Source: Saprospiraceae bacterium (lineage in GTDB: Bacteria; Bacteroidota; Bacteroidia; Chitinophagales; Saprospiraceae). Taken from it: a stretch of 32,840 bases of DNA. This document shows, one piece after another, positions 1 to 19,137 of the stretch; within the stretch, counting starts at the first letter, position 1, and every line of letters begins with the position of its first letter. The translations under genes were made by a program, and so were the position numbers. The notes beneath the pieces were generated by a model, which was not told where the DNA came from, ran no database searches, and was given only the letters and a program-made list of their open reading frames with translations. Location of the stretch: positions 1-32,840 of the forward strand of contig JADLBE010000203.1 of the NCBI GenBank assembly GCA_020847915.1. Direction: 5' to 3'.

Positions 1-38
1 GGCGTGTTGAAAATGCGCTGGCGTGGCTGGTGAAACAC

Positions 39-602: not shown

Positions 603-636
603 GGTTCTCGGTTTTGTTTCATGCCAAGGTAAAAAC

Positions 637-1191
637 TTATTTGCCAATTACGTCTCTGGCGTACAACAATCGCTGCTGCCAGTATTTTGAAGTGGTAATG
701 TTTTCCTCAATGACGCCCCTGCTGGTTGTGCTGTGGATGCAGTACACGTTTTTACCGTCGCGCCTGCTCACCATGGCCACGTGTGAAACGTCGCGGCCGT
801 TTTCTGCAAAAAAAACAAGATCTCCTGGTTGCACCTTGCTGAGGGAGACTTCATTTCCCAAAACAGCCTGACCCCTGGATGCCGGGGTGATGGGAAAACC
901 GAATCCTTTGTAAACAAAACTGGTGAAGCCGGAACAGTCGAAGCCGGTTTTGGGATTGGTTCCTGCGTATTTGTAAGGTGTTCCGATGTATTTTCGCGCA
1001 TAATCGGCCATTTCCCTGCGTTTTTTCGAAACAGTTCCACTCGATGCCGGTGGTGTGGTTGTTGGTTTTGACGGCGAGGTGGGCGCCGGCTTGTCCGACG
1101 AAGATTTGTAATAAGAGACGGTGCCTTTTTTCGAACAGGATGCCGCCAGAAACAAAAAAAACAGCAAGGATAAAAATTGGAGCAAACGCAT
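637..1191 (-). CDS. NlpC/P60 (C40) family lipoprotein hydrolase
   Basis: Lipobox-like LAASC; GFDCSGF catalytic Cys motif, PGDLVFF and SHVAMV His region. Confidence 0.9.
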   Translation of the reverse strand: MRLLQFLSLLFFLFLAASCSKKGTVSYYKSSSDKPAPTSPSKPTTTPPASSGTVSKKRREMADYARKYIGTPYKYAGTNPKTGFDCSGFTSFVYKGFGFPITPASRGQAVLGNEVSLSKVQPGDLVFFAENGRDVSHVAMVSRRDGKNVYCIHSTTSRGVIEENITTSKYWQQRLLYARDVIGK

Positions 1192-1267
1192 AGCAAACAA
1201 GATTAATATTTTATTTCACTTCGGTTCCACACTTCTCCGGAATAACCACGCTTTACCGTGATATCCG

Positions 1268-1286
1268 CATTCCCCATTCCCCATTC
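1268..1286. repeat. Short heptad repeat CATTCCC x2.7
   Basis: cattccc cattccc cattc next to the terminator; mirror 31555-31573. Confidence 0.6.
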
Positions 1287-1321
1287 AAAAAAAGCCACCC
1301 CGTTTTAACGGAATGGCTCAT
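1287..1321 (-). terminator. Intrinsic terminator after the 1385-1942 NlpC/P60 gene
   Basis: On minus strand: AGCCATTCCGTT-AA-AACGGGGTGGCT followed by TTTTTTT; mirror 31520-31554. Confidence 0.75.
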
Positions 1322-1384
1322 GTATTAACTTTTTTTCATACCGGTAAGGTATGATGCGAAAACGCATTGTATTTTCTTTAACAA

Positions 1385-1942
1385 TTACAATTGGGAGTCT
1401 GCAAACAAAGGCGCCTGATCGCTGATGACATCGCGGGCAAACAGGATGCGCGGTTTCCAGTACCTGGAAGTACTGATGTTTTCCACAACGATGCCACGCG
1501 AGCAAGTGCTGTGTACGCAGATGATGCCTTCGGCGGTGTTTTCAACCACCAAAGCAACGTGCTGGATGTAACCTTTGCCGCCGAAAAACACCAGGTCGCC
1601 TGGCAATACGTCGTTAAGGGAAATCCGTTTGCCCTGACGCGACTGCGTGCTCGAGCTGGAGGATACGTTGATGTTGAATTCTTTCAGGATGTAACGGGTA
1701 AAACCCGAGCAGTCGAAACCTGTTTTAGGGCTCTGTCCTGCGTATCGGTAGCGGAGTCCGGTGAAAGTTTGGGCCCAACCGGTAACCTGCTCGCGGAGCT
1801 GCATGATTTCAGCGCCTACTTCACGTGCTGGATTTTTGCCGGGGCTGTAAAAGGCTGAGGAGGAAACCCAAAATAGCAGAACCAGGCTACATGTGGCAAT
1901 AAATTGAACTGAACGGTTGAAACGTTTTGTTTCGAACATCAT
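1385..1942 (-). CDS. NlpC/P60 (C40) family hydrolase, paralogue of the adjacent gene
   Basis: YAGQSPKTGFDCSGFTRY, PGDLVFFGGKGYIQHVALV; N-terminal hydrophobic signal. Confidence 0.9.
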   Translation of the reverse strand: MMFETKRFNRSVQFIATCSLVLLFWVSSSAFYSPGKNPAREVGAEIMQLREQVTGWAQTFTGLRYRYAGQSPKTGFDCSGFTRYILKEFNINVSSSSSTQSRQGKRISLNDVLPGDLVFFGGKGYIQHVALVVENTAEGIICVHSTCSRGIVVENISTSRYWKPRILFARDVISDQAPLFADSQL

Positions 1943-2190
1943 AAGTGTGTAAGTTTAGTGAAGCAAACGGCCGCCGGGCCGTCTGTAGGGGATTAATCCC
2001 TGACGGGATGACAAGAAAAAGGCGATTCTTGGGCAATTATGGACTCCGAAATGGCTTGCGTGCGGCGGATATGTTCATGGAGAGGATTATGAAACCGGAG
2101 TCGATTTGGGATAATTTCCCTGCAAGCCGACGGCAAAGGTAGCAATTGCTTTCAAAAAACAATGCGTTTAAAACAAAAAATGGAACAAAG

Positions 2191-2961
2191 TCACAGGTTC
2201 AATACAAAATCATCGGCATCGGCGAGAAAGGGCAACTCGCGACGGTATTTATGTAAAAAATCCAAGGAAAGTTCTGTGGTAAAGACGCCTTTTTGGTCTT
2301 TCGGCGATAAAATTTCTTGTCCGGAACAATCCAGAAGCACCGAATCCCCGCCGTATTCGTAGCCGTTTCCATCGGTGCCGATGATGTTCACGCCTGCTGT
2401 AAATGCTTGATTTTCAATGGATCGCGCTGGAAGTAAGCTTCGCCAATGGTGCGCTCTGCGCGAGGGCCAGTTGGCCAGAAAAAAAATAAGGTCATACGGC
2501 TCCTTTTGCTGCCTGCTCCACACCGGAAACCGTAAATCGTAACAAATCATGGGACAAATGCGCCATCCCCGCCATTCAAAAACCAGACGTTGCGTACCCG
2601 CCGCATAGTGCTCGTGTTCACCGGCAAGTGCAAAGCGGTGCCGTTTGTCGTAATGCAGTGTTGTGCCGTCGGGGAAAGCCACGAGCAGGCGGTTGTAATA
2701 GCTGCCGGCCTCTTTGCAAATGAACGAACCACAAACAGCAGCATCCAGTTGCCGGGCATGGTTCAACATCCAGCGTACGGTTTCACCGTCCATCGTTTCG
2801 GACAACGTTTCCGGACGCATGCTGAATCCTGTGGTGAACATTTCGGGCAGCAAAACCAGGTCGGTGGCTCCGGCAAGCGGTGCGAGCAAGGCATCGAAAC
2901 GTTCCCGGTTGGCGACAGGGTTCTCCCAGATGAGGTCGGTTTGTACAAGCGTAGTGCGCAT
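2191..2961 (-). CDS. Carbon-nitrogen hydrolase (nitrilase superfamily), omega-amidase/YafV-like
   Basis: Glu-Lys-Cys triad context: LLPEMFTTGFS, YDKRHRF, PMICYDLRFPVW. Confidence 0.88.
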   Translation of the reverse strand: MRTTLVQTDLIWENPVANRERFDALLAPLAGATDLVLLPEMFTTGFSMRPETLSETMDGETVRWMLNHARQLDAAVCGSFICKEAGSYYNRLLVAFPDGTTLHYDKRHRFALAGEHEHYAAGTQRLVFEWRGWRICPMICYDLRFPVWSRQQKEPYDLIFFLANWPSRRAHHWRSLLPARSIENQAFTAGVNIIGTDGNGYEYGGDSVLLDCSGQEILSPKDQKGVFTTELSLDFLHKYRRELPFLADADDFVLNL

Positions 2962-3020
2962 GGTGCTAAGGTCGTGTGTTTGTAGGTATCTTTGCCACCC
3001 TTAACCGAACAAATTTCACC

Positions 3021-3791
3021 ATGGATATTACCCAGCAAGGCTACGTCAAATACGAGGTTTCACCCGCCGGCGTGGCACGTATCGTTTTTTTTCACCCCAA
3101 CCACAACAGTTTGCCCAGCAAACTGCTTCAGAGCCTCGCCGACGCGTTCGAACGTGCTTCAAGCGATCCGGCGGCTCGCATCGTGCTGCTGGCCAGTGAA
3201 GGCCACAAAACCTTTTGTGCAGGCGCCAGTTTCGACGAACTTTCCGCCATCAACGATTTTGAAACCGGCCACCGCTTTTTTTCCGGCTTCGGGAACGTGA
3301 TCAATGCCATGCGCACATGTTCCAAAATCATCTTGGGACGTATCAACGGCAAAGCTGTGGGCGGCGGCGTAGGACTTTTAGCAGCCACCGACTACTGTCT
3401 GGCCAGCAAATACGCCTCCGTGCGCCTCAGCGAACTTGCCGTGGGTTTCGGCCCCTTTGTCATCGGTCCAGCCGTGGAACGCAAAGTAGGCCCGGCAGCT
3501 TTCAGCCAAATGGCGCTGAACCCCGACGAATGGCAAACGGCCGAATGGGCCAAAGCCAAAGGTCTTTTCCAGGAAGCTTTTGAAAGTGAAGAACAACTCG
3601 ACGCCTACATCGAACATTTCAGTGCAAAACTCTGCGGTTACCACACCGAGGCGCTCGCCGAACTCAAATCCATCTTTTGGAAAGGTACGGAGCACTGGGA
3701 TACGCTCCTGAGCGAACGCGCCGCCATCAGCGGCCGACTGGCGCTGTCGGATTTTACGAAAAATGCGATTAAAGCTTTTAAAAGCAGTTAG
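3021..3791 (+). CDS. Enoyl-CoA hydratase/isomerase family protein
   Basis: Crotonase-fold motifs FCAGASFDELSA, INGKAVGGGVGLLAATDYCLAS; stop codon TAG lies inside an AGCAGTT repeat. Confidence 0.88.
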   Translation: MDITQQGYVKYEVSPAGVARIVFFHPNHNSLPSKLLQSLADAFERASSDPAARIVLLASEGHKTFCAGASFDELSAINDFETGHRFFSGFGNVINAMRTCSKIILGRINGKAVGGGVGLLAATDYCLASKYASVRLSELAVGFGPFVIGPAVERKVGPAAFSQMALNPDEWQTAEWAKAKGLFQEAFESEEQLDAYIEHFSAKLCGYHTEALAELKSIFWKGTEHWDTLLSERAAISGRLALSDFTKNAIKAFKSS

Positions 3792-3826
3792 CAGTTAGCA
3801 GTTAGCAGGCAGCAGGCAGCAGGCAG
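3783..3826. repeat. Heptad tandem repeat: AGCAGTT x3 then AGCAGGC x3
   Basis: Direct reading, period exactly 7; overlaps stop codon of the enoyl-CoA hydratase gene; mirror 29015-29058. Confidence 0.95.
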
Positions 3827-3896
3827 TGCGCATGCGTTTTACATTTACAAGTGGCCGAAAGTAGTGAGTCCTATAGAAACTATCAAATTCAATAAA

Positions 3897-3943
3897 TAAA
3901 AATGAGTCATCCCTGAAAGGGATGACCCATTGTATTTTTTTTA
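3897..3943. terminator. Bidirectional terminator hairpin between convergent genes
   Basis: aaaaatgaGTCATCCCT-gaa-AGGGATGACccattgtatttttttt; mirror about 28898-28944. Confidence 0.75.
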
Positions 3944-4003
3944 GCTGCCTGCTGCCTGCTGCCTGCTGCCTGCTGCCTGCTGCCTGCTGCCTGCTGCCTG
4001 CTA
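3944..4003. repeat. Heptad tandem repeat GCTGCCT x8 plus partial
   Basis: Direct reading; inverted relative to 3804-3826 (AGCAGGC); abuts carA stop codon; mirror 28838-28897. Confidence 0.97.
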
Positions 4004-5086
4004 TGACAGCATTTCCACAAACGCATCAAACAAATACCGTGCGTCGTGTGGGCCGGGACTGGCTTCGGGGTGGTATTGTACGCTGAAGGCAGGTTTGTTT
4101 TTCAGGCGGATGCCTTCCACCGTATTGTCGTTGAGGTTGATGTGGGTAGCTTCAACGAGGGAAGGGGAATCGTACACGGCTTGTTCGAGAACGCCGAATC
4201 CGTGGTTTTGACTGGTAATTTCACTTTGGCCGGTGATGAGGTTTTTTACCGGGTGGTTGATGCCGCGGTGGCCGTGGTGGAGTTTGTAGGTGGGCAACCC
4301 GACCGCGCGTGCGAGCAGTTGTTGTCCCAGACAAATACCAAACAGTGGCTTTTCTTCGGCCAGCATTTTGCGGATGTTGTCCACGGCGTAGTCCATGGGT
4401 GCCGGGTCGCCAGGACCGTTGGACAGGAAGTAACCGTCGGGATTCCAGGCTTTTACCGTCTCGAAGGGTGTTTGGGCTGGAAATACACGAAGGAAACATT
4501 TGCGTTGATCGAAACAGCGCAGGATGTTCTTTTTCACCCCGTAGTCCATTACGGCAATGCGGTAGGGCGCTTCGGGATCACCGATTTCGTAAGGTTCGGA
4601 GCAGGTGACGCGGCTGGAAAGCTCGAGGCCGTCCATGCTGGGTGTGTTTTTAAGGATGCCAATGAGTTGGTCGACATCGTCGATCTCCGACGAAATGATG
4701 CAGTTCATGGCGCCGCGTTGGCGGATGTGCTGTACGATGGCGCGGGTATCCACACCTTCTATGGCCACGAGGTTTTGTTGTTCGAAGTAGTCCTGAATGC
4801 TCAGATCGGCATTGGCACGGCTGTACGGAACATTAAAATTACGGCAAATGAAGCCGGCAATTTTGATGCCGTTGCTTTCAACTTCGGAGTTTTTGATGCC
4901 GTAGTTGCCGATGTGCACGTTGGTGGCTACAAGGATTTGTCCGAAGTAAGAAGGGTCGGTAAAAATTTCCTGATAGCCGGTCATGCCGGTGTTGAAACAA
5001 ATTTCGCCGGTGGTAGTGCCGATTTTGCCGGCGGCAGTACCGTGGAATACGGTACCGTCTTCGAGAAGGAGAATGGCTTTGCCCAT
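4001..5086 (-). CDS. carA: Carbamoyl-phosphate synthase small subunit
   Basis: ATP-grasp partner glutaminase: EDGTVFHGTAAG, NTGMTGYQEIFTDPSYFGQI, FGICLGQQLLARA, PEASPGPHD. Confidence 0.96.
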   Translation of the reverse strand: MGKAILLLEDGTVFHGTAAGKIGTTTGEICFNTGMTGYQEIFTDPSYFGQILVATNVHIGNYGIKNSEVESNGIKIAGFICRNFNVPYSRANADLSIQDYFEQQNLVAIEGVDTRAIVQHIRQRGAMNCIISSEIDDVDQLIGILKNTPSMDGLELSSRVTCSEPYEIGDPEAPYRIAVMDYGVKKNILRCFDQRKCFLRVFPAQTPFETVKAWNPDGYFLSNGPGDPAPMDYAVDNIRKMLAEEKPLFGICLGQQLLARAVGLPTYKLHHGHRGINHPVKNLITGQSEITSQNHGFGVLEQAVYDSPSLVEATHINLNDNTVEGIRLKNKPAFSVQYHPEASPGPHDARYLFDAFVEMLS

Positions 5087-5212
5087 GTGTTTGTGGAATA
5101 TGCGACCTGCACTGCCGCTGGTTTTCGGGCGGCAAAGGTCGGATTTAGCCGGGACTTTTTGGCGCAGCCAACCGTTTTTATTTGCCGTAGGCTAAAAATC
5201 ATTTTCATCAAA

Positions 5213-5265
5213 TGTTAAGTTTTTTCCTTCCAGGTAAACTTAACATTAAATAATTGTTAAGTTTT
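5213..5265. promoter_or_regulatory. Three alternating-orientation copies of TGTTAAGTTT in a divergent intergenic region
   Basis: TGTTAAGTTT 5213-5222, AAACTTAACA 5236-5245, TGTTAAGTTT 5255-5264, between carA and the 5341 ORF; mirror 27576-27628. Confidence 0.5.
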
Positions 5266-5340
5266 GGACCTTTGTGCCAGTCAGGTTCCTAACCTTGCCA
5301 TGACGACCGAGGAGTCGTCTGTTTTTTAAAAACACATTTT

Positions 5341-5697
5341 ATGAAGAAGAAAATTGCCAAGATGCTCCAATCGGAGCAGTGGAAAACCAATGCCCGTTTC
5401 AAAGCTTTGTACAAAGAAATCCAGGCCGCCGAGGCGCGTGTAGAAGATGCCATCAAGGCCAAGGAAGCTGCCAAAGCAGCTTACCGTGAAGTTTTGCCTT
5501 CCGGCGACCAGGTTGTGCTTATGGAAAAGTTGACGGCCTTCCGTCAGGCCAAACTGATGCGCGAATTTGAAGAAGCCGCCCTCACCCTGGCACAGTTCCG
5601 TTTGTACCAGTGGGCTGAGCAACAAAAAGAAAAAGCCAAAGCAGCTGCCAAAAAGAAAAAGCCGGTGATTGAAAAAGCGGTTGCCAAGGTTGCCTAA
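5341..5697 (+). CDS. Small basic protein of unknown function with Lys/Ala-rich C-terminus
   Basis: 118-aa ORF, intact, opposite to carA across a divergent region; predicted helical, KAKAAAKKKKPVIEKAVAKVA tail; no family recognised. Confidence 0.65.
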   Translation: MKKKIAKMLQSEQWKTNARFKALYKEIQAAEARVEDAIKAKEAAKAAYREVLPSGDQVVLMEKLTAFRQAKLMREFEEAALTLAQFRLYQWAEQQKEKAKAAAKKKKPVIEKAVAKVA

Positions 5698-5706
5698 TTT
5701 TGGCCC

Positions 5707-6480
5707 ATGGCCGACCAGGATGCTCTGCGCCGCATGCTCGATGAAGCCTTGCGGCGTTTCAATACCCCCGACTTTATTCCACACGATCCGATCCGTATAC
5801 CGCACCGCTTTACGCAGCTGCAGGACCGCGAGATCATGGCCTTTTGGACGGCCACACTCGCCTGGGGCAACCGAAAAAGCATCATCAACAGTGCTGAAAA
5901 GTTGGTTCAATTGATGGACGGCGCGCCTTACGACTTCATTTTAAACCATGAAGAAAAGGACCGCCAACGTTTCCTGGAGTTTAAACACCGAACCTTTCAG
6001 GCCACCGACACCCTGTACTTCCTGGAGTTTTTTCAAAACCACTACCGGCAGCATCACTCGCTGGAAGATGCTTTTGTAAGCCACCTGAAACCCGGCGAAG
6101 TGCATGTGGAAAACGCCATCGCAGGGTTTCACCAAACGTTTTTCGACCATCCTTATGCACCCGGGCGTACACGCAAACACGTGGCCACACCCGACAGGGG
6201 CAGTACCTGCAAACGTATCAACATGTTCCTGCGCTGGATGGTACGCCGCGATGAAGCCGGGGTCGATTTTGGCGACTGGCAACGGTTACGGCCGTCACAA
6301 TTGCTGATACCACTTGATGTTCATGTGGAAAAAGTAGCGCGCAAACTGGGCCTGCTGACACGTACCCAGGTCGATTGGAAGGCTGTACTTGAACTCACGG
6401 AAAACCTCCGCGCCTTTGATCCGGAAGACCCGGTGAAATACGATTTTGCTTTATTCGGAATGGGAGTACTGAAGTCGTAA
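5707..6480 (+). CDS. TIGR02757 family protein (DUF2400)
   Basis: DPIRIPHRFTQLQDREIMAFWTATLAWGNRKSIINSAEKLVQLMDGAPYDF and RINMFLRWMVRRDEAGVDFG..LLIPLDVHVEKVAR. Confidence 0.87.
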   Translation: MADQDALRRMLDEALRRFNTPDFIPHDPIRIPHRFTQLQDREIMAFWTATLAWGNRKSIINSAEKLVQLMDGAPYDFILNHEEKDRQRFLEFKHRTFQATDTLYFLEFFQNHYRQHHSLEDAFVSHLKPGEVHVENAIAGFHQTFFDHPYAPGRTRKHVATPDRGSTCKRINMFLRWMVRRDEAGVDFGDWQRLRPSQLLIPLDVHVEKVARKLGLLTRTQVDWKAVLELTENLRAFDPEDPVKYDFALFGMGVLKS

Positions 6481-6491
6481 GTCGTAAGTCG
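6472..6491. repeat. Heptad tandem repeat AAGTCGT x2.9
   Basis: Includes the TAA stop of the TIGR02757 gene; mirror 26350-26369. Confidence 0.9.
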
Positions 6492-6513
6492 GGCTATAGC
6501 TTGGGATTGGAAT

Positions 6514-6560
6514 AAAAAAATGCCCAATTGTTTGGAATTCAAACGATTGGGCATTTTTTT
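6514..6560. terminator. Bidirectional terminator hairpin
   Basis: AAAAAAATGCCCAATtGTTT-ggaattc-AAACgATTGGGCATTTTTTT; mirror 26281-26327. Confidence 0.85.
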
Positions 6561-6583
6561 ATTGAAATACTAAGCCGAATGCT

Positions 6584-6616
6584 GACTTACGACTTACGAC
6601 TTACGACTTACGACTT
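6584..6616. repeat. Heptad tandem repeat GACTTAC x4.7, inverted relative to 6472-6491
   Basis: Direct reading; one base from the OmpA-gene stop codon; mirror 26225-26257. Confidence 0.95.
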
Positions 6617-6617
6617 T

Positions 6618-7376
6618 TTAAAACGAGCCTCCGAGGTCTTTGTTCGTTTTTACTTCACCTGCATCGTCAACGATGGCGAGTACCACACGGCGGTTGTGTT
6701 TGCGGTTTTCTGCGATGTCGTTGCCGTCGAAATCTTCGTTGGCAGCAACAGGATCAGCTTCGCCGAATACTTTGATGTACATGCGATCGGCACGGATACC
6801 CTTGTTGATCAGGTAATTGCGTGCAGCACGGGCACGCGTGGTGGCAAGGTTAACGTTGGACTGGGCGCTGCCCACGGCATCGGTATAACCAAGCAGTTTC
6901 AGCTTCATGGTAGGATGCTCGCGCAGGGTCTGGGCCACGACGTCGAGCTCGGCTTTGGATTCGGCGGAGAGGTTGGAGCGGCCGAAATCAAAATAAATGT
7001 TGCGAAGGGTGGAACTGCGGGCTTTGTCCTGAACAAACACCGCACCGTCGGTACGGAAATAAGGACAATTGGCGCCGCACAGGATGCGCTGTTCTTCAAG
7101 GTCGATGATGGCGGCGAACGGAAAGCCTTTGCTGATCAGTTGTTTCTGAATTTGTTCGGCTTGTTCGCGTGTTTGGTAGGAACCGTAAAAATAACGGTGC
7201 ATACCCATTTGGTCGACCGTTGTAACCACGCCTTCCACACCACGCGATTTGAAGTACGACGAAGAAACGGAATCTGCAAAAGCGGCAACCTGTACGCGGA
7301 AATCCTGCGCCATCAGGGGAGTGAATGCAAGCAGGGACGAACAAATGCAAGTCAGAACGAGATGTCTCAACTTCAT
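6618..7376 (-). CDS. SPOR-like + OmpA C-terminal domain envelope protein
   Basis: Signal peptide; FRVQVAAFADS..YFYGSYQTREQAEQ (SPOR-like); NIYFDFGRSNLSAESKAELD...LLGYTDAVGSAQSN (OmpA). Confidence 0.87.
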   Translation of the reverse strand: MKLRHLVLTCICSSLLAFTPLMAQDFRVQVAAFADSVSSSYFKSRGVEGVVTTVDQMGMHRYFYGSYQTREQAEQIQKQLISKGFPFAAIIDLEEQRILCGANCPYFRTDGAVFVQDKARSSTLRNIYFDFGRSNLSAESKAELDVVAQTLREHPTMKLKLLGYTDAVGSAQSNVNLATTRARAARNYLINKGIRADRMYIKVFGEADPVAANEDFDGNDIAENRKHNRRVVLAIVDDAGEVKTNKDLGGSF

Positions 7377-7424
7377 GGGTGTGTAAGGAGGATGATTAAG
7401 TGAATATCGGTTCGGATCAAAGTA

Positions 7425-7456
7425 CAAAAGTACGTTTTTCGCCGCGCAACTGCAAA
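7425..7456 (-). promoter_or_regulatory. Bacteroidota-type promoter for the SPOR-OmpA gene
   Basis: Minus strand TTTG-N20-TACTTTTG, matching the TTTG / TAnnTTTG consensus; mirror 25385-25416 (+). Confidence 0.5.
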
Positions 7457-7562
7457 TTTTCCGGGTAGGTTAACATGTGCTGTTGGTTGCTCCTGAAAAC
7501 TAACCGGGTCATTGAGACGCTGTTTGTTTACTTTTGTAACACAAAACAGACTTTTATTATTC

Positions 7563-8399
7563 ATGTTGCGGCACTTATTTTGTCTATTGGCGGTGTTTTT
7601 CGGCACGGCTTTCCAACAACAATCGCCTGGTATCGACCCACGTGACGCAACCCTTTTTGCATCCAAAGTTGCAATTGCCGCAGCCGAAACATCCCTGGCC
7701 GCCCGAACCCTTGCCGTTGCCGAATCGTTTCTCGGCGCCCCTTATGTTTCCGGTACCCTCGACGTAAATACCTCCGAAAAACTCGTCGTCAACCTACGTC
7801 AACTCGATTGCTGGACGTTGGTGGAAAACAGCCTTGCCATCGCCCTGACTTCTCAGGAGACGCCTCCGGGTTTAACATCCTACGAAAATTACCTTCGTCA
7901 ACTTCGCTATTGGGGCGGCACGATCAACGGGTACGGCTCGCGCATACATTATTTTACCGGCTGGACCTTGCAGGCTGAAAAGCTGGGCTACGTCACCGAC
8001 ATCACCGAGCAACTGGGCGGCAGACGTTACGATAAACACATCGCCTACATGTCTGCAAGGCCCCACAAATACCCGGCATTGAACAACCCAAAAAACTTAC
8101 AGGACATTCAAAACGCCGAAACACGCATCAACCGTCACGCCTGGCATTACATACCTGAAAACCGTATCGAAATGGTGGAGGACAAACTGAAACCGGGCGA
8201 CATCATCCTGCTCACCTCCGCCAAACGCGACCTGGATATCGCGCACCAGGGCTTTGCCGTCGTGCGCAACGGCCGCATCCATTTGTTGCACGCCTCCTCC
8301 CTCAGCAAACGAGTGATGGTTTCGTCCCAACCGCTGGGGGCATACGTACGGAGCCAGGTGGGACAAACGGGAATTATGGTGCTGCGGGTAGTCGGTTAG
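7563..8399 (+). CDS. DUF1460 (PF07313, N-acetylmuramoyl-L-alanine amidase-like) protein
   Basis: FLGAPYVSGTLDVNTSEKLVVNLRQLDCWTLVENSLAIAL and GDIILLTSAKRDLDIAHQGFAVVRNGRIHLLHAS. Confidence 0.85.
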   Translation: MLRHLFCLLAVFFGTAFQQQSPGIDPRDATLFASKVAIAAAETSLAARTLAVAESFLGAPYVSGTLDVNTSEKLVVNLRQLDCWTLVENSLAIALTSQETPPGLTSYENYLRQLRYWGGTINGYGSRIHYFTGWTLQAEKLGYVTDITEQLGGRRYDKHIAYMSARPHKYPALNNPKNLQDIQNAETRINRHAWHYIPENRIEMVEDKLKPGDIILLTSAKRDLDIAHQGFAVVRNGRIHLLHASSLSKRVMVSSQPLGAYVRSQVGQTGIMVLRVVG

Positions 8400-8436
8400 T
8401 CAGTTAGTCGGTTGGTCGGTTGGTCTGTTGGTCGGG
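8391..8436. repeat. Octad tandem repeat GTCGGTTA-like x5.7
   Basis: gtcggtta gtcagtta gtcggttg gtcggttg gtctgttg gtcggg; contains the DUF1460 gene stop codon; mirror 24405-24450. Confidence 0.92.
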
Positions 8437-8445
8437 ATTTATTGA

Positions 8446-8729
8446 CGAGATACCAGATACGATTTTTGAAATTTGAATTTAAGCCCTCACTCCGCTTTTT
8501 TGTCTGAATCAGGATTCCCAGGATTTGAAGATTTTCAGGATTTTAAATTGCATGATTGGATTAAAGTAGATTACAGGATTTGAGCTGAAATGATCCTAAA
8601 ATTCCGAAAAATCCAATCCTGCAATTTAAATCCTGGAAATCTTCAAATCCTGGGAATCCTGATTCAGACAAAATGGGCGGAGTGAGGGCCCTTTAAATTC
8701 AAAAATCAAATTTCAAATTTCGTATCTCG
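8446..8729. repeat. Long imperfect inverted repeat (arms about 117-120 nt) between convergent genes
   Basis: Left arm ...gtctgaatcaggattcccaggatttgaagattttcaggattttaaattgcatgattggatt; right arm aatccaatcctgcaatttaaatcctggaaatcttcaaatcctgggaatcctgattcagac...; mirror 24112-24395. Confidence 0.92.
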
Positions 8730-8740
8730 TAATTCAAAGC

Positions 8741-10057
8741 CTACACCCTGCTAATCTTCGCCCCAATAGCATTCAACCTCGTATCAATGTGCTGGTAGCC
8801 TCGGTCGATCTGGTGCACGTTGTGGATGATGCTTTTGCCTTTGGCAGATAGTGCGGCGATGAGCAGGGCTTGTCCGGCGCGGATGTCGGGTGAGGTCATT
8901 TCGATGCCGCGAAGTTGTGAGCGGCGGTCGAGTCCGATGACCGTAGCGCGGTGCGGGTCGCAAAGGATGATTTGTGCGCCCATGTCGATGAGTTTGTCGA
9001 CAAAAAACAAGCGACTTTCGAACATTTTTTGGTGGATCAATACGCTTCCTCGGGCCTGGGTGGCGGTTACGAGCATGATCGACATGAGGTCGGGCGTAAA
9101 GCCGGGCCATGGAGCATCGTAGATGGTCATGATCGAACCGTCGATGAACGTCTGGATTTCGTAGTGTTCCTGGGCGGGTATGTGCAGGTCGTCGCCAACC
9201 ACGTCGATTTGGATGCCGAGGCGTTCGAAGGTGTGTGGTATGATGCCGAGGTGTTGAACGCCGACGTTTTTGATGGTGATGTCGGAGGCGGTCATGGCGG
9301 CGAGACCGATGAAGCTGCCTACTTCGATCATGTCGGGCAAACAGCGGTGTTCGGTGCCGCCGAGTTGTTCAACACCTTCGATGTGCAGGAGGTTGGAGCC
9401 CAAACCTTCGATGCGGGCGCCCATACGCACGAGCATTTGGCAAAGTTGCTGTACGTACGGTTCGCAGGCGGCGTTGTAGAGGGTGGTTTTACCCTTGGAA
9501 AGCACAGCGGCCATCAACACGTTGGCGGTACCGGTGACAGAAATTTCGTCCATGTGCAGGTACGTGCCCTTCAGACCTCCGTCGGGTTTTTGCACATAAT
9601 AAATGTCTTTTTCGTCGTCGTATTTGAACTCGGCGCCAAGTTTTTGGAAACCCAGAAAGTGGGTATCAAGGCGTCGGCGACCGATTTTATCACCGCCGGG
9701 TTTGGGCAGGGTAGCGCGGCCGAAACGGGCGAGCAGCGGACCGATGAGCATGACCGAACCGCGCAGGCGTTGGGCGTCGCGCAGGAAATTTTCGGAACGC
9801 AAATAACTCACGTCGATGGTACCGGCGCAGAAACGGTAGGTGTCGGGCGCCGTTTTTTCGGCCGTTACACCCAGTCCGCGCAGCAGTTCGATGAGTTTGT
9901 TGACATCGAGGATGTCGGGGATGTTGGAGATGGTCACCACATCGTCGGTGAGCAACACGGCGCTGATCACCTGCAGCGCTTCGTTTTTAGCGCCCTGCGG
10001 TGTCAGTTCGCCTTTCAGCGGATGCCCGCCTATAACTTCAAAAGTATCGGATACCAT
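8741..10057 (-). CDS. murA: UDP-N-acetylglucosamine 1-carboxyvinyltransferase
   Basis: MVSDTFEVIGGHPLKGELTPQGAKNEALQVISAVLLTDD...; start set at the MVSD methionine rather than the longer ORF start. Confidence 0.95.
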   Translation of the reverse strand: MVSDTFEVIGGHPLKGELTPQGAKNEALQVISAVLLTDDVVTISNIPDILDVNKLIELLRGLGVTAEKTAPDTYRFCAGTIDVSYLRSENFLRDAQRLRGSVMLIGPLLARFGRATLPKPGGDKIGRRRLDTHFLGFQKLGAEFKYDDEKDIYYVQKPDGGLKGTYLHMDEISVTGTANVLMAAVLSKGKTTLYNAACEPYVQQLCQMLVRMGARIEGLGSNLLHIEGVEQLGGTEHRCLPDMIEVGSFIGLAAMTASDITIKNVGVQHLGIIPHTFERLGIQIDVVGDDLHIPAQEHYEIQTFIDGSIMTIYDAPWPGFTPDLMSIMLVTATQARGSVLIHQKMFESRLFFVDKLIDMGAQIILCDPHRATVIGLDRRSQLRGIEMTSPDIRAGQALLIAALSAKGKSIIHNVHQIDRGYQHIDTRLNAIGAKISRV

Positions 10058-10311
10058 GTTTTGGTTGTGGTTTTTCGGATTTATGTGGTTGGGCGGGGCG
10101 AAAGTAAGCAATTGCAGGTATTCGACCACGACTACCTCATTTCCAATGTAGAAGGTACCTAAAAATAAAGGAGCAGCCATTCGAATGTGACGGAATACAA
10201 TCCCAGGAATCCAGCTCCAATGTGAAAATTTGGGGGAAGTCCGGCAAATCATGGTTAACTTTGCGGCTTCGCGGGACCGGGACAAAATCCGGTTTGCGGC
10301 GAACACAACCT

Positions 10312-11217
10312 ATGTCGGTAAAAGTTCAACACCTTGTAAAAACATACGATACCCAACGCGCCGTCGACGACGTAAGTTTCGAAGCGCATGCGGGAGAAGT
10401 GCTTGGTTTTTTGGGCCCCAACGGCGCCGGAAAAACCACCACGATGAAAATCATCACCGGTTACCTGCCCCAATCGGCCGGTACCGTACAGGTATGTGGC
10501 TACGACGTAGCGTCGCAATCCATCGAATCGCGCGCATGCGTGGGTTACCTGCCCGAGCACAATCCGCTGTATCGGGATATGTATGTGCTTGAGTACCTTC
10601 ATTTTGCAGCAGGTTTGCACGGTGTGAAAAACGCCGTCAAACGCGCCGATGAGATGGTTGAACGCACCGGTTTGCAAAGCCACAGACACAAACAAATCAG
10701 CGAATTGTCGAAAGGTTACCGGCAGCGTGTAGGCCTCGCCCAGGCCATGCTGCACGATCCGCAGGTACTCATCCTCGACGAGCCGACTTCCGGTCTCGAT
10801 CCCAACCAGATTGTTGAAATCCGCCAGCTTATCCGCGATTTGGGCAAGGAAAAAACGGTGATTCTTTCCACCCACATTCTGGGCGAAGTGGAAGCCGTGT
10901 GCGACCGCGCAGTCATCATCAACAAAGGCAAACTGGTTGCAGATTCGCCAATTGAAGCGCTTAAACAACAGTTCAGCGGACAAAACCTGATCACGGTGGA
11001 GTTTGCGCAGGATGTGTCTGAAAAACAACTTGCCGGCATCCGCCACGTACAATCGGTGAAAAAACTCGCCAACCGCCGCTGGCAACTGGTATCGGCCGTT
11101 CAAAACGACGTGCGTTCCGACGTGTTTGCTTTTGCCGTTGCCAACCAACTCACCCTGCTGGAACTGCACAAAGAAGTATTCAGCGTAGAGGACGTATTCC
11201 AACAGCTCACCCGTTAA
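10312..11217 (+). CDS. gldA: ABC transporter ATP-binding protein, GldA-like
   Basis: Walker A GPNGAGKTTTMKI, signature LSKGYRQRVGLAQAM, Walker B VLILDEPTSGLDP; adjacent GldF-like permease. Confidence 0.82.
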   Translation: MSVKVQHLVKTYDTQRAVDDVSFEAHAGEVLGFLGPNGAGKTTTMKIITGYLPQSAGTVQVCGYDVASQSIESRACVGYLPEHNPLYRDMYVLEYLHFAAGLHGVKNAVKRADEMVERTGLQSHRHKQISELSKGYRQRVGLAQAMLHDPQVLILDEPTSGLDPNQIVEIRQLIRDLGKEKTVILSTHILGEVEAVCDRAVIINKGKLVADSPIEALKQQFSGQNLITVEFAQDVSEKQLAGIRHVQSVKKLANRRWQLVSAVQNDVRSDVFAFAVANQLTLLELHKEVFSVEDVFQQLTR

Positions 11218-11259
11218 CTTTTGTCATCCCGTAAGGGACCTTTGTCATTCCGTTAGGAA
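11218..11259. repeat. 21-bp degenerate tandem duplication between gldA-like and gldF-like genes
   Basis: CTTTTGTCATCCCGTAAGGGA / CCTTTGTCATTCCGTTAGGAA; mirror 21582-21623. Confidence 0.7.
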
Positions 11260-11262
11260 ACC

Positions 11263-12081
11263 ATGCCAATCACAGCCTTACTCAAAATACTACTCGTCGT
11301 CGCAGCTTTTTCCGCCCTGCTGTTGGTACCCCGCTTTTTTCGCTCGGGCGTTTCGGCCATTTACAGGAAAGAAATCAACGCATTTTTCGCCTCCTTCATC
11401 GGCTATGTGGTGATCGGCGTTTTTCTGGTCATCATGGGCCTCGTGATGTGGGTTTTCCCCGATTACAGCGTGCTCGACAGCAACTACGCCAGTTTGGAAA
11501 CGCTTTTTTCCATGGCGCCCATGATTTTTATGTTCCTCATACCTGCGGTAACCATGCGCACGTTCGCCGAGGAAAAACAAAGCGGTACGATTGAATTGCT
11601 GGTAACCCGGCCGGTTTCAGACTGGCAAATCGTGGCGGGCAAGTACCTTGCTTGTTTGGCGTTGGTGGTGTTTGCTTTGTTGCCCACGGTGTTGTATTAC
11701 ATCACGGTGTACATCCTCGGTCAGCCCCAGGGCAACCTCGATTCGGGTGGCATTTTGGGTTCCTACATCGGTTTGTTGTTCCTGGCCGGTAGTTTTTCCG
11801 CCATTGGCGTGTTTGCTTCCTCGCTCACCAACAACCAGATCGTGGCTTTCGTTTTGGCGACTTTCCTGTGTTTTGTGGTGTACCTTTCTTTCGATTTTTT
11901 GAGCGCTTTGCCCATTTTTTACGGCAAAACCGACGACATCGTACAGTCGTTCGGCATACAGTACCACTACAATTCCATCAGCCGCGGCGTCATCGATTCG
12001 CGCGACGTGGTGTATTTCCTGTCGGTGATCGTGTTGTTTTTGGCGGCTACGGTTTTGTCGTTGGGCAGGCGCCGTTGGTAA
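11263..12081 (+). CDS. gldF: ABC-2 type permease, GldF-like
   Basis: YRKEINAFFASFIGYVVIGVFLVIMGLVMWVF, TMRTFAEEKQSGTIELLVTRPVSDWQIVAGKY; follows GldA-like ATPase. Confidence 0.78.
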   Translation: MPITALLKILLVVAAFSALLLVPRFFRSGVSAIYRKEINAFFASFIGYVVIGVFLVIMGLVMWVFPDYSVLDSNYASLETLFSMAPMIFMFLIPAVTMRTFAEEKQSGTIELLVTRPVSDWQIVAGKYLACLALVVFALLPTVLYYITVYILGQPQGNLDSGGILGSYIGLLFLAGSFSAIGVFASSLTNNQIVAFVLATFLCFVVYLSFDFLSALPIFYGKTDDIVQSFGIQYHYNSISRGVIDSRDVVYFLSVIVLFLAATVLSLGRRRW

Positions 12082-12084
12082 AAA

Positions 12085-12160
12085 ATAGCTGAAAGCTGAA
12101 AGTGGAAAGTAAATATTGGTTCAAGTAACTTTCAGCTTTCCACTTTCAGCTTTCAGCTAT
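12085..12160. repeat. Inverted heptad tandem repeats (AGCTGAA/AGTGGAA) at the gldF-like/SDR convergent junction
   Basis: ATAGCTGAAAGCTGAAAGTGGAAAGT ... ACTTTCAGCTTTCCACTTTCAGCTTTCAGCTAT; mirror 20681-20756. Confidence 0.93.
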
Positions 12161-12864
12161 AGATCCCCCAGCTGCGGTCTTACCAAAATTTCCTCCACCA
12201 CGGCCGAATCGGACAAGTCGTAAGCGCCCCACACCAGTTTGGCGATGTCGGTTGCCTGCATGAGGCGTGATTCGGGCAGATCGACGCCTGCCCACGAGTC
12301 GGACCAGGTGGCGCCGGGCAGGACGGCGGTTACTTTTACCCCTTTGGATTTCATTTCTTCGCGCAACACTTTGGTGAAACCCAGCATGGCAAATTTGGCG
12401 ATGGTGTACGATCCGCCGTTGGGGTAGGCGATGATGCTGGCGATGCTGCACATGTTGAAAATGTGGCCATGGTTGTAAGGCGTCATTTGAGGCAGCAGGG
12501 CGCGGGTAAGATAATAAGCGCTGTAGAGGTTGGTTTCGATCATGGTTTCGAGTGTGCCCGAGGCTTCGTCTTCCACGGCGCCGGGAAGGAAAAGTCCGGC
12601 ATTGTTGATCAAAACATCCACTTTGGAGCGTTTGCTGCGCACAAAATCGGCGAAATGAAACACGTCGTGCTTTTTGCTTAAATCGGCGGCAAACGTAAAA
12701 AGTTCTACGTTGGGGAAATGTTCGTTGAAGTGCTCGCGCATGTCGTCTAGGTCGGACTGTGTACGTGCACAGGCACACACATCGAATCCCTGGATTGCAA
12801 ACGTTTCGGCGAAGGCGCGGCCCAAACCTTTGGTGCCGCCGGTAACTACTATAAATTTGTTCAT
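12157..12864 (-). CDS. Short-chain dehydrogenase/reductase (SDR)
   Basis: VVTGGTKGLGRAFAE (Gly-rich), LINNAG, S..YTIAKFA (Y-x3-K). Confidence 0.93.
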   Translation of the reverse strand: MNKFIVVTGGTKGLGRAFAETFAIQGFDVCACARTQSDLDDMREHFNEHFPNVELFTFAADLSKKHDVFHFADFVRSKRSKVDVLINNAGLFLPGAVEDEASGTLETMIETNLYSAYYLTRALLPQMTPYNHGHIFNMCSIASIIAYPNGGSYTIAKFAMLGFTKVLREEMKSKGVKVTAVLPGATWSDSWAGVDLPESRLMQATDIAKLVWGAYDLSDSAVVEEILVRPQLGDL

Positions 12865-12947
12865 CAGTTCGATATTGTTTTTCAGCCTTCGGCAAAAGTA
12901 CGTTACTTTGAGGCTGTATTTTGGGCGTGTCTCAACAATCACAACGC

Positions 12948-13703
12948 ATGAATTCATTTTCCCGTTTCAATTACCTGTACCATTTCGGACGCTACCTGGG
13001 CATGATGCGCCAGTCGATAAGCCGGCCCGAAAAATTCAGCATGTACTGGAAGGAAACCATGCGGCAACTCAACGACATCGGTGTGGGTTCGCTCATCATT
13101 GTTTGTCTGATCGCCATTTTTATCGGCGCCGTATCGGCTGTACAGTTTGCTTACCAGCTCGACGGGCAACTTGTTCCGCGCTACTACATCGGCTACATCG
13201 TTCGCGACCTTGCCATCATCGAACTGGCGCCTACCATCACCTGTTTGGTTTTGGCCGGCAAGGTAGGCTCCAATATGGCTGCTGAAATAGGCGGCATGCG
13301 GCAAAAAGAACACATCGACGCCATGGAAGTGATGGGGGTTAATACGGCGGCCTACCTCATCATGCCGAAAACCATTGCCGCCATTTTTGTGATTCCTTTG
13401 CTGGTAACCTTCGCCGCGTTTGTTGCCATTTTGGGTGGTTACCTCGCAAGCGTACCTACCGACCTGATCACCGACGACGAATTTGTGCGCGGTTTGCGTG
13501 TGTATTTCAACGAACGCAACGTCACGCTCATGTACATCAAATCGCTTGTTTTCGCCTACATCCTTACCACGGTCTCCTGTTACCAGGGTTTTTATGTTAC
13601 CGGTGGAAGCATCGAGCTCGGTCAGGCCAGCACAAGGGCAGTGGTTTTCAGCGATATTTTGATCCTGCTTGCTGATTACCTGATCGCTGTTATGTTAACC
13701 TAG
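12948..13703 (+). CDS. MlaE/YrbE-family ABC transporter permease
   Basis: ELAPTITCLVLAGKVGSNMAAEIGGMRQKEHIDAMEVMGVN motif typical of MlaE permeases. Confidence 0.9.
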   Translation: MNSFSRFNYLYHFGRYLGMMRQSISRPEKFSMYWKETMRQLNDIGVGSLIIVCLIAIFIGAVSAVQFAYQLDGQLVPRYYIGYIVRDLAIIELAPTITCLVLAGKVGSNMAAEIGGMRQKEHIDAMEVMGVNTAAYLIMPKTIAAIFVIPLLVTFAAFVAILGGYLASVPTDLITDDEFVRGLRVYFNERNVTLMYIKSLVFAYILTTVSCYQGFYVTGGSIELGQASTRAVVFSDILILLADYLIAVMLT

Positions 13704-13705
13704 AA

Positions 13706-13776
13706 AGTTCGGAGTTTGGAGTTCGGAGTTCGGAGTGGCTCCGAACTCCAAACTCCAAACTCCGAACTCCAAACTC
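13706..13776. repeat. Inverted heptad tandem repeats (AGTTCGG/AGTTTGG) forming a long hairpin upstream of dapD
   Basis: AGTTCGG AGTTTGG AGTTCGG AGTTCGG AGTGG / CTCCGAACTCCAAACTCCAAACTCCGAACTCCAAACTC; mirror 19065-19135. Confidence 0.94.
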
Positions 13777-13784
13777 TTCAAGAA

Positions 13785-14594
13785 ATGCGTGACATCATAG
13801 AGGCTGCCTGGAACGACCGCAGCCTTCTTCAATCCGAATCAACCCGCAAAACCATCCGCGAGGTGATCGCCGCCCTCGACGCCGGCGATTTGCGTGTGGC
13901 CGAACCTGGAACCGACGGCAACTGGATCACCCACGAATGGGTGAAAAAAGCCGTGATCCTGTATTTTCCCATTCAGGAAATGCAAACCATCGAAGTTGGT
14001 CCGTTTGAATACCACGATAAAATTCCGCTTAAAACAGGCTTCGCCCAAAAAGGTGTTCGTGTGGTGCCCCAGGCGTTGGCGCGCTACGGATCGTTTATTG
14101 AAAAAGGCGCCATCCTTATGCCTTCGTACGTCAACATCGGCGCATGGGTAGGCAGTGGCAGCATGGTGGATACCTGGGCAACCGTGGGTTCATGCGCACA
14201 GATCGGCCGCAACGTACACCTGGCAGGCGGCGTAGGCATCGGCGGCGTTTTGGAACCACCTCAGGCTACACCCACCATCATCGAGGATGAATGTTTTATC
14301 GGCTCACGTTGCATCGTTGTGGAAGGTGTCCATGTGGAAAGAGAAGCCGTTTTGGGCGCCAACGTGGTACTTACTCAAAGTACACACATCATCGACGTGA
14401 CCGGCTCTGAACCAAAAGTGCTGAAAGGCCGAGTGCCTGCACGTTCCGTGGTGGTTCCGGGCTCGTATACCAAACAATTCCCTGCGGGTGAATACCAGGT
14501 GAGCTGTGCGCTCATCATCGGACAAAGGAAAGAAAGCACCGACAAAAAAGTGTCGCTGAACGATGCGCTTCGCGATTTCCAGGTTTCCGCATGA
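13785..14594 (+). CDS. dapD: 2,3,4,5-tetrahydropyridine-2,6-dicarboxylate N-succinyltransferase
   Basis: Left-handed beta-helix hexapeptides; GAWVGSGSMVDTWATVGSCAQIGRNVHLAGGVGIGGVLEP; start at MRDIIEAAWNDR, downstream of the 13706-13776 hairpin. Confidence 0.94.
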   Translation: MRDIIEAAWNDRSLLQSESTRKTIREVIAALDAGDLRVAEPGTDGNWITHEWVKKAVILYFPIQEMQTIEVGPFEYHDKIPLKTGFAQKGVRVVPQALARYGSFIEKGAILMPSYVNIGAWVGSGSMVDTWATVGSCAQIGRNVHLAGGVGIGGVLEPPQATPTIIEDECFIGSRCIVVEGVHVEREAVLGANVVLTQSTHIIDVTGSEPKVLKGRVPARSVVVPGSYTKQFPAGEYQVSCALIIGQRKESTDKKVSLNDALRDFQVSA

Positions 14595-15340
14595 GCAAAA
14601 CGATCGACATCACCACCACACAAAACGTGACCATTGAGTACGACCTTGCGCCCCTGCGGGAGCGTGCTTTGGCGTGGGTGCTCGATTTGGTGCTGGTGAT
14701 CATTTTGTATTTTATGTTTTTCCAGTTTATGCGCTTCCTGCTGGGCGATGGCATGTTTGAAAACATGGGCTGGACGATGATCATCGTGTTGTTCCCTTTT
14801 TTGTTGTTTTTTTTCTACAACATCCTTTTTGAAATTTTAAAAAGCGGACAAACACCCGGAAAAACCGCCATGAGCATCAAGGTGGTGCGTCTGGACGGCA
14901 AAGACCCGGAATGGAGCGACGTTTTGCTTCGTTCGGTTCTACACCTTGTGGATTCTTTGTTCTCCTTTGCCGTTATTGGTTCGTTGCTGATCAAAACAAC
15001 GCCCAAAAGCCAACGACTGGGCGACATGGCGGCCAACACCACCGTCATCAAAATACAAGGGCTTCGTTCGCAGTTCCGGCTCGACGACATCCTCAACATT
15101 TCCACCATCAGCAATTACCAGCCGGTGTATCCACAGGTGCGCAACCTTGGCGAAAAGGACATGATTTACATCAAAACCGTTTTGCTCCGTTTCCAGCGTT
15201 ACCCCAACCAGGCCCATCACGAGGTGGTGGAAGATTTGGTTTCACACCTCATGCCGTTGCTGGATGTTGAACAAAGACCGAGGGATCGGGTAGAGTTTTT
15301 GAGGACACTTTTAAGGGATTATATCGTGTTGACGAGGTAA
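14591..15340 (+). CDS. RDD family membrane protein
   Basis: APLRERALAWVLDLVLVIILYF..., GQTPGKTAMSIKVVRLDG; ATGA overlap with dapD stop. Confidence 0.87.
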   Translation: MSKTIDITTTQNVTIEYDLAPLRERALAWVLDLVLVIILYFMFFQFMRFLLGDGMFENMGWTMIIVLFPFLLFFFYNILFEILKSGQTPGKTAMSIKVVRLDGKDPEWSDVLLRSVLHLVDSLFSFAVIGSLLIKTTPKSQRLGDMAANTTVIKIQGLRSQFRLDDILNISTISNYQPVYPQVRNLGEKDMIYIKTVLLRFQRYPNQAHHEVVEDLVSHLMPLLDVEQRPRDRVEFLRTLLRDYIVLTR

Positions 15341-15346
15341 ATTTGA

Positions 15347-15426
15347 AACGTTGCTTTTACCCATCCTGCAAAAAGGCGTGCCGGCTAGCCGGCACGCCTT
15401 TTTGCAGGATGGGTAAAAGCAACGTT
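15347..15426. terminator. 80-bp perfect palindrome (40-nt arms, no loop), probable terminator hairpin core
   Basis: aacgttgcttttacccatcctgcaaaaaggcgtgccggct/agccggcacgcctttttgcaggatgggtaaaagcaacgtt; core AAAAAGGCGTGCCGGCTAGCCGGCACGCCTTTTT is terminator-like; mirror 17415-17494. Confidence 0.9.
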
Positions 15427-15525
15427 GTTGTTTAGGGAAAAGCGTTAAATCCGGGTTCCAACACACTATAAACGCTTATTGTTGCCAATATTGAGGTATC
15501 GTACAACCCAACTAAAAATTTTCAA

Positions 15526-16374
15526 ATGAAAAAATTCATTCCTCTCGTTTTGCTGGCTTGTCTGGCCCTGGCTGCAACACCTGCCCGTAAAAAATTTAAG
15601 CTGCCGAAAGCTTACGTATACATACCATCGGGTACCCTAACGGAAAATGGTGAAAAAAAGTCCATTCAGGGTTTTTACATGCAGCGTTCGGAGGTAACCA
15701 ATCTACACTACCGCGAATTTTTATCCTGGTTGAAACATTACGGTAAGCCCGAAGATCTGGCCAAAGCACAGATAAAGCCTGAAGGTTGGAGATTGAATGG
15801 CGGTTACAACGAACCTTTTGTTGAATATTACCATACTCATCCGGCGTACGATAATTACCCGGTAGTGAACGTTTCCTACGAATCTGCACAACTGTATTGC
15901 ACATGGCTCACAGGAATCCTGCAGGATCAACATCCTGATTGGAAAATTGAGGCACGCCTGCCTACGGAAGCCGAATGGAATTATGCTGCACGGGCAGGCA
16001 AGGAGGGCGTCCCATATCCGCTCGGCCACAACCTGCGCGATGCCAAAGGCAATATCCTGTACACTTACCGCAACATTGGCGATGAATCAATCTCGCGTGA
16101 TCCGGGAACGGGTGAAATCAAGATGGTTGAAACCAAACCTGGCGGCACTTTTTACGGTCCGGCCGAAGCCGCAGCGAGCAAGCCCAACGACTTTGGCTTG
16201 TACAACACCTCGGGCAACGTGGCTGAAATGTTGCTCGAACCCGGCAAACACAAAGGTGGTTGTTTCAACAGCACAGGTTACGACATCCGCATTGACGCAC
16301 CCGATGAATTTGCAGGTGTAACGGAAGCATCGCCGTTCGTAGGATTCCGGGTATTGATTGTGGTTCGCTCTTAA
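15526..16374 (+). CDS. SUMF1/FGE-sulfatase-domain protein with signal peptide
   Basis: IQGFYMQRSEVTNLHYREFL, ARLPTEAEWNYAARAG, GLYNTSGNVAEML, KGGCFNS; secreted, ends 46 nt before the symmetry axis. Confidence 0.88.
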   Translation: MKKFIPLVLLACLALAATPARKKFKLPKAYVYIPSGTLTENGEKKSIQGFYMQRSEVTNLHYREFLSWLKHYGKPEDLAKAQIKPEGWRLNGGYNEPFVEYYHTHPAYDNYPVVNVSYESAQLYCTWLTGILQDQHPDWKIEARLPTEAEWNYAARAGKEGVPYPLGHNLRDAKGNILYTYRNIGDESISRDPGTGEIKMVETKPGGTFYGPAEAAASKPNDFGLYNTSGNVAEMLLEPGKHKGGCFNSTGYDIRIDAPDEFAGVTEASPFVGFRVLIVVRS

Positions 16375-16380
16375 CCTTCA

Positions 16381-16460
16381 ACCGTCGCGATTACCATAAC
16401 CAAGAAGGGTGTTGCCGGCTAGCCGGCAACACCCTTCTTGGTTATGGTAATCGCGACGGT
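16381..16460. terminator. Hairpin at the symmetry axis, probable natural terminator of the SUMF1-domain gene
   Basis: ...AAGAAGGGTGTTGCCGGCT/AGCCGGCAACACCCTTCTT...; shares TGCCGGCTAGCCGGCA with 15347-15426; natural boundaries not determinable because symmetry continues to the window ends. Confidence 0.6.
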
Positions 16461-16466
16461 TGAAGG

Positions 16467-17315: not shown

Positions 17316-17500
17316 TTGAAAATTTTTAGTTGGGTTGTACGATACCTCAATATTGGCAACAATAAGCGTTTATAGTGTGTTGGAACCCGGATTTAACGCT
17401 TTTCCCTAAACAACAACGTTGCTTTTACCCATCCTGCAAAAAGGCGTGCCGGCTAGCCGGCACGCCTTTTTGCAGGATGGGTAAAAGCAACGTTTCAAAT

Positions 17501-19056: not shown

Positions 19057-19137
19057 TTCTTGAAGAGTTTGGAGTTCGGAGTTTGGAGTTTGGAGTTCGG
19101 AGCCACTCCGAACTCCGAACTCCAAACTCCGAACTTT

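Follow-up and report, generated by a model that had tools for sequence, protein, structure and literature searches.

Tandem heptanucleotide repeats close to stop codons are known from Xanthomonas, where GGGAATC heptads lie mostly 0–50 bp from the stop, their G-rich unit being in the coding strand. Each genome has 70–75 inverted pairs, and the frequency between convergent open reading frames (ORFs; 16%) is double that between divergent ones (7–8%) (Rehm et al. 2015, PMC4692102); the same study includes the GGGGATT heptads of Nostoc. Heptamer direct repeats between genes (the short tandemly repeated repetitive sequences, STRRs, of cyanobacteria and TAACTGA) have also been reported in five Bacteroidetes, and in Beggiatoaceae the TAACTGA repeats are mostly upstream of start codons and mostly without inverted pairs (PMC4679880). 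Here we consider arrays of period 7 or 8, and long hairpins, at the 3' ends of genes in Saprospiraceae bacterium (GCA_020847915.1), starting from contig JADLBE010000203.1 (C203), the whole 32,840-nucleotide stretch of which is termed the window. The closest precedent is the stop-proximal inverted heptads of Xanthomonas, of which the Saprospiraceae case is an extreme and varied version. A preliminary description of the window had proposed a distinct 3'-end architecture; since Xanthomonas already has stop-proximal, strand-polarised heptads in inverted pairs (PMC4692102), the system is not new in kind.

Two further classes of element offer a comparison. Intergenic stem-loops favour convergent over co-directional over divergent junctions and sites downstream of stops, with symmetric A-tract/T-tract stems (PMC1590033, PMC6060812), and in E. 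coli inverted repeats cluster after stops (PMC6060812). Unlike these stem-loops and bidirectional terminators, the stems described here are several times longer, often lack a U-tract and have arms made of tandem repeats. Repetitive extragenic palindromic (REP) sequences and bacterial interspersed mosaic elements (BIMEs) consist of one or a few conserved palindromic sequences of 20–40 bp, intergenic and biased towards 3' ends. The present hairpins share the palindromic form, the intergenic position and the 3' bias, but their sequence varies freely and their arms are tandem arrays. Indeed, the conserved dispersed consensus of REP/BIME elements with REP-associated tyrosine transposases (RAYTs) is absent, the units varying by locus and by species.

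The true anchor of the arrays is the stop codon, that is, the gene 3' end, and not convergence itself. Statistics for the source genome (an uncultured Saprospiraceae bacterium; 5.22 Mb, 534 contigs, 97.6% complete) are drawn from 1.18 Mb, about one fifth of the whole, of which 0.81 Mb (73 loci) was picked blind to repeats and serves as the unbiased sample; genes were called with a simple home-made hexamer-based caller (86% coding), on which gene starts and small genes rest. In spacers that hold a 3' end, 74 of 168 arrays begin between -15 and +6 nt from the stop, against 15.4 expected under uniform placement, and array-abutted gene ends are threefold more frequent at 3' ends (49/536) than at 5' ends (18/566). 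At 36 of 76 such ends the stop codon lies inside or overlaps the abutting array, and TAG is over-represented there (25/76, against 116/725 elsewhere; p = 7e-4). Moreover, near-stop units with unequal G and C all have G>C when read in the direction of their gene (67:0), a polarity shared with Xanthomonas, while array-free 3' flanks show little G/C bias (148:126). Arrays adjacent to start codons have the mirrored polarity, with G<C in the sense of the downstream gene (24:0). A transcription-linked polarity is rejected on this account, and the rule is therefore geometric: the unit has G>C when read from the flanking gene into the spacer, such that the 5' arm of a hairpin is the G-richer on either strand. 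In samples from the same genus and from other Bacteroidota taken together, 14 near-stop arrays have G>C and two have G<C. As in Xanthomonas, close inverted pairs are frequent, 44 of 52 stop-abutting arrays in convergent spacers and 18 of 30 in co-directional spacers having an inverted partner, with a median spacer of 78 bp. The system departs from Xanthomonas in that a single G-quadruplex-forming GGGAATC is replaced by dozens of unit families of period 7 or 8 (33 recur in the genome, and the common ones have no G-tracts of at least 3), in that the arms often fill the spacer from stop to stop, and in that an orthologous junction keeps its hairpin although the units differ.

Period 7 predominates in the unbiased 0.81 Mb, with 116 runs against 23 of period 6, 41 of period 8, 34 of period 9 and 5 of period 10, and few arrays lie inside genes; in this over-representation of 7-bp intergenic units the arrays are like STRRs and TAACTGA, although unlike TAACTGA they are placed at 3' ends and come in inverted pairs. 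Among spacers of at least 80 bp in this sample, a period-7 or period-8 array is found in 16/45 convergent (36%), 38/195 co-directional (19%) and 6/85 divergent (7%) cases (convergent against divergent, odds ratio 7.3, p = 1e-4; against co-directional, odds ratio 2.3, p = 0.028), the convergent figure reaching 60% on contigs chosen for one repeat. The enrichment that the preliminary description expected from a genome-wide scan is thus present. Its statement that repeats mark every convergent junction holds locally, since period-7 or period-8 arrays occur at four of four convergent junctions of the window and at none of its five divergent ones, but the 36% found genome-wide makes it an overstatement; the window is an extreme sample of its genome. 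Nor are convergent junctions the exclusive site, given the arrays in co-directional spacers generally and at two of eight within the window (13704–13784, before a gene labelled dapD by that description, and the short 1264–1286). Units that appear unrelated between loci in the window likewise belong to families that recur genome-wide, AAGTCGT having 109 matches (49 forward, 60 reverse); it is present in 3 of 61 genomes searched, including its own. Where a convergent locus has two arms, these share their unit in 16 of 20 cases, against about 16% expected from unit frequencies; arm lengths are often unequal, and single arms also occur. In other Bacteroidota arrays are rare in most genomes (36 period-7 runs in 1.46 Mb), and that sample shows no significant convergent bias.

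The arrays are part of a broader group of very long hairpins, defined here by a best inverted repeat scoring at least 25 in the spacer, a score that no inverted repeat reached in shuffled spacers. In the source genome such hairpins occupy 27/55 convergent (49%), 39/239 co-directional and 5/79 divergent spacers; among convergent spacers the figure is 10/48 (21%) in the same-genus sample, which is small, and 2/106 (2%) among 80 loci from other Bacteroidota. A heptad or octad array is present in only 13 of the 29 strong convergent hairpins; the others are non-repetitive or of dispersed hairpin families. Long 3'-end hairpins are thus the more general class, and heptads one way of filling them. The strong hairpins have a median arm of about 41 bp, and in 17 of the 29 both edges lie within 12 nt of both stops; those without arrays have no G/C polarity (8:7). 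In some hairpins (L015, L017) the arms stand back to back without a core. One dispersed family, with ends TGACGAGATACGAAATTTG and inner TTTGTCTGAATCAGGATT..., occurs at 8442–8735 of the window and at L031, L053, L055 and L059; further families are ACCACATTAGGCACATTAG... and CTGTGTTGCTTGCATCTGTGTCATC..., and only the TCAGGATT-type family resembles a dispersed element.

How form and sequence behave over time can be seen at the junction between carA and a facing enoyl-CoA hydratase gene. A search of the genus located carA in 40 genomes; 30 loci were read, and the comparison covers the nine species, the source included, in which the two genes face each other across a spacer of at least 30 nt. Eight of the nine have a hairpin, its arms 24–62 bp long and its two edges no more than 9 nt from the two stops. 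The arms are AGCAGGC in the source genome, GTTATTG/GTTATCA in a clade of five species that the carA tree supports, and non-repetitive in two other species. In other words, the hairpin is kept across about 20% divergence of the carA protein, which at this junction supports the earlier suggestion that placement and period rather than sequence are conserved. Within the five-species clade the order of variant units is species-specific and mostly mirrored between the arms. The eight hairpins are not eight independent origins; counted conservatively, they represent four lineages with differing arm sequence. Elsewhere in the genus there are inverted pairs of TGAGTGTT octads (L164:11188–11348), AACGATG/ATGAACG heptads (L226:267–401) and GTTATTGG octads (L154:13476–13594). 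Near murA, three Pedobacter species have AGGGTTT x8 (L089:6443–6501), GGTTAGC x5 (L091:6425–6460) and AGGCTTT x12 (L096:6583–6669); from their similar positions these look like the same junction with different units. The closest named records to the MurA of the source genome are from metagenome-assembled genomes of Saprospiraceae and Bacteroidota, at 84–85% identity.

With regard to origin, hairpins are a documented product of template switching, which also maintains them (PMC8794818), and the present hairpins resemble such quasi-palindromes in their nearby reverse-complement copies, the mirrored order of variants and the absence of a G.U excess both being in agreement. The proposal, which we regard as evenly balanced between right and wrong, is that the hairpins filling the spacer 3' of stops arise at the DNA level, by slippage together with template switching. 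Slippage in steps of 7–8 bases would elongate each arm, and template switching, in the form of quasi-palindrome correction, would copy one arm onto the other, so that the arms share a unit even as species come to differ in sequence. Hairpins would then build up where sequence is free to change, between stop codons, and would be kept out of 5' regions with promoters and start sites. To our knowledge, no earlier link has been made between template-switch hairpins and stop-anchored heptad arrays. Production at the DNA level is favoured since the arms are coupled, their sequence turns over at a fixed place and stem mismatches show no excess of G.U, a result that makes the by-product of template switching the best fit among the roles that the preliminary description had put forward. 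Once transcribed, the hairpins would form 3'-end structures, some of them enclosing a bidirectional terminator, with the probable effect of stabilising or ending transcripts and of insulating genes that face each other. A role at transcript ends is plausible because symmetric terminator cores sit between the arms at several loci.

Several observations weigh against this origin. No template-switch event has been directly observed, the available relatives being about 80% identical in carA protein and thus too distant for single events to be followed. Where arm-to-arm copying was set against copying between loci in the source genome, self was better in 18 cases and worse in 15, and the presence of the same units at many loci shows spread of sequence from locus to locus as well. 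Plain slippage and template switching do not predict the strict G>C polarity, and stop-to-stop hairpins do not raise the sharing of stop codons by facing genes (15:15, against 56:53). Loss of SbcCD as the cause of the hairpin load was considered and rejected, as an SbcCD-like pair is present in the genome. Among members of the genus, SbcD matches above the family cut-off in a few (G004, G008, G012, G036), whereas most have just a divergent SbcD-like nuclease next to a short protein resembling SbcC.

The main alternative at the RNA level is that the structures are themselves selected, complementarity being kept for termination or protection of the mRNA end, with heptads an easy route to a long stem. 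The position of arrays and hairpins at gene 3' ends, their very stable folds, the symmetric terminator core between the arms at some loci (a GC-rich stem with a U-tract) and the arrays in 12 of 18 convergent spacers that hold a bidirectional terminator all speak for it. Selection on RNA pairing nevertheless predicts a clear excess of G.U over A.C mismatches in stems transcribed from one side only, and co-directional stems have 59 G.U against 55 A.C in the source genome and 77 against 74 when the genus and Bacteroidota samples are added. As the association of arrays with U-tract terminators in the unbiased sample is also not significant (convergent p = 0.15, co-directional p = 0.80), and as arms are often unequal or single, we consider this explanation unlikely. 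No Rfam family matched at gathering score; below it there were low-scoring matches to miRNA hairpins and one to a leader. The lack of any sign of selection on RNA pairing would suit a wholly neutral account, in which slippage arrays and palindromes form throughout the genome but last only in convergent spacers, without function, being removed from coding and 5' regions. Their distribution does track constraint, and stem-loops are more frequent in convergent than in divergent spacers in all bacteria surveyed (PMC1590033). Against this, the polarity of 67:0 and 24:0 is too ordered, the arrays start sharply at stops, and the carA junction has kept its hairpin over the divergence given above, such that neutrality alone seems to us a somewhat unlikely explanation, though not a negligible one.

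Dispersed mobile palindromes of REP type, or resembling miniature inverted-repeat transposable elements (MITEs), with heptad ends and inserting at gene 3' ends, would account for the recurrence of units and of similar terminator cores at many loci; moreover, one clear dispersed hairpin family (TTTGTCTGAATCAGGATT...) is present at 8442–8735 and elsewhere, and the genome has two Y1-type transposase (Y1_Tnp) genes. Such insertion is improbable, however, given that arm sequences differ at orthologous junctions, that some hairpins (L015, L017) have no core, that arrays begin within the stop codon and that AAGTCGT is confined to 3 of the 61 genomes. That the whole pattern is an artefact of assembly, as might be feared of a contig which is an exact palindrome, can practically be dismissed, the same arrays and hairpins being found on dozens of other contigs and in the genomes of other species.

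What is added to the known systems is a vocabulary of many units with one polarity, arms that fill the spacer from stop to stop, persistence of the hairpin at an orthologous junction despite change of sequence, and the mismatch test. The junctions offer a natural setting where a 3'-end hairpin retains its form as its sequence changes, and where mismatch type and strain comparison can separate selection on RNA pairing from templated DNA copying. They also show that two kinds of object usually listed apart, heptad repeats and long palindromes, can be one and the same. A broader and decidedly tentative proposal is that a DNA-level process keeps rewriting the convergent spacers of the genus as stop-to-stop palindromes, with a species-specific vocabulary of 7 or 8 bases and a fixed G-to-C polarity, the form at a junction being inherited and its sequence replaced; the hairpins would serve as barriers between converging genes irrespective of hairpin sequence.

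The window itself illustrates a practical trap, in that arrays and hairpins break assemblies and may fold contigs into false palindromes. All 32,840 of its 32,840 bases match its own reverse complement, the mirror half (16421–32840) duplicating 1–16420, probably by assembly doubling. The second half is therefore no independent evidence, and the unique part, 1–16420, has four independent convergent junctions. The turning point is a stop-adjacent hairpin centred at 16420/16421, in the region where TTGCCGGC meets TAGCCGGCAA, and the palindrome probably arose when the assembly folded back on itself at a long hairpin that is natural. Two short contigs consisting almost wholly of repeated 41-mers (L065, contig C435, and L195, contig C173) were probably doubled in the same way and were excluded from the genome statistics. 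Heptad arrays are one cause of assembly breaks, 10 of 161 contig ends lying inside arrays, and long arrays are therefore under-counted and their true lengths greater. Contig ends of L009, L030, L035, L041, L056, L063, L188, L190 and L205 lie in arrays of up to 155 nt.

Tandem Repeats Finder places the period-7 arrays of the window at 3783–3826/3944–4002, 6472–6491/6584–6616, 12087–12102/12128–12158 and 13706–13736/13739–13776, with a period-8 array at 8385–8435 and no array of either period in the five divergent junctions. The arrays reach into coding ends, starting at the stop codon and often having it within the first unit, and the junction hairpins have RNA fold z-scores of -9 to -17 against shuffles. 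At the carA junction, the left arm (3783–3826, + strand) has AGCAGTT and then AGCAGGC heptads and contains the TAG stop of the + strand gene at 2976–3791; a terminator-like hairpin with A/T tracts (GTCATCCCTgaaAGGGATGAC and a T-run) lies between the arms at 3895–3947, and the right arm (3944–4002, - strand) runs from the carA stop (ORF 4001–5086, - strand) as 8.4 AGCAGGC heptads in the carA sense. At the next convergent junction AAGTCGT heptads extend from the stop of ORF 5707–6480 (6472–6491, + strand) and adjoin that of ORF 6618–7427 on the - strand (6584–6616, - strand), with a symmetric terminator-like hairpin, AAAAAAATGCCCAATTGTTTG...CAAACGATTGGGCATTTTTTT, at 6511–6563; similar cores are found elsewhere between arms of AAGTCGT, AGCAGGC or AGCCGTT.

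The third junction (8400–8740) is one-sided, the octad array GTCGGTTA/GTTGGTCG adjoining the stop of ORF 7512–8399 (8385–8435, + strand), with octad GTCGGTTA on the left only and a different repeat, TTCAAAT, on the right. The latter belongs to the dispersed long-hairpin element at 8442–8735 (ends TGACGAGATAC...GAAATTTG, inside TTTGTCTGAATCAGGATT...; fold z -17.4), whose near-perfect arms are 8498–8543 and 8628–8673. At the fourth, AGCTGAA/AGTGGAA heptads after the stop at 12081 form a left arm (12085–12109, + strand) with a perfect complement at 12136–12160 (- strand), which holds the TAG stop of ORF 12157–12957 on the - strand. The co-directional junction following the stop at 13703 has arms of AGTTCGG/AGTTTGG heptads at 13706–13735 (+ strand) and 13739–13768 (- strand), the right arm without a T-run. 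Finally, a perfect hairpin with arms of about 40 bp and without heptads lies directly after the stop at 15340 (15347–15426), and is of the same class as the heptad hairpins with another filling.

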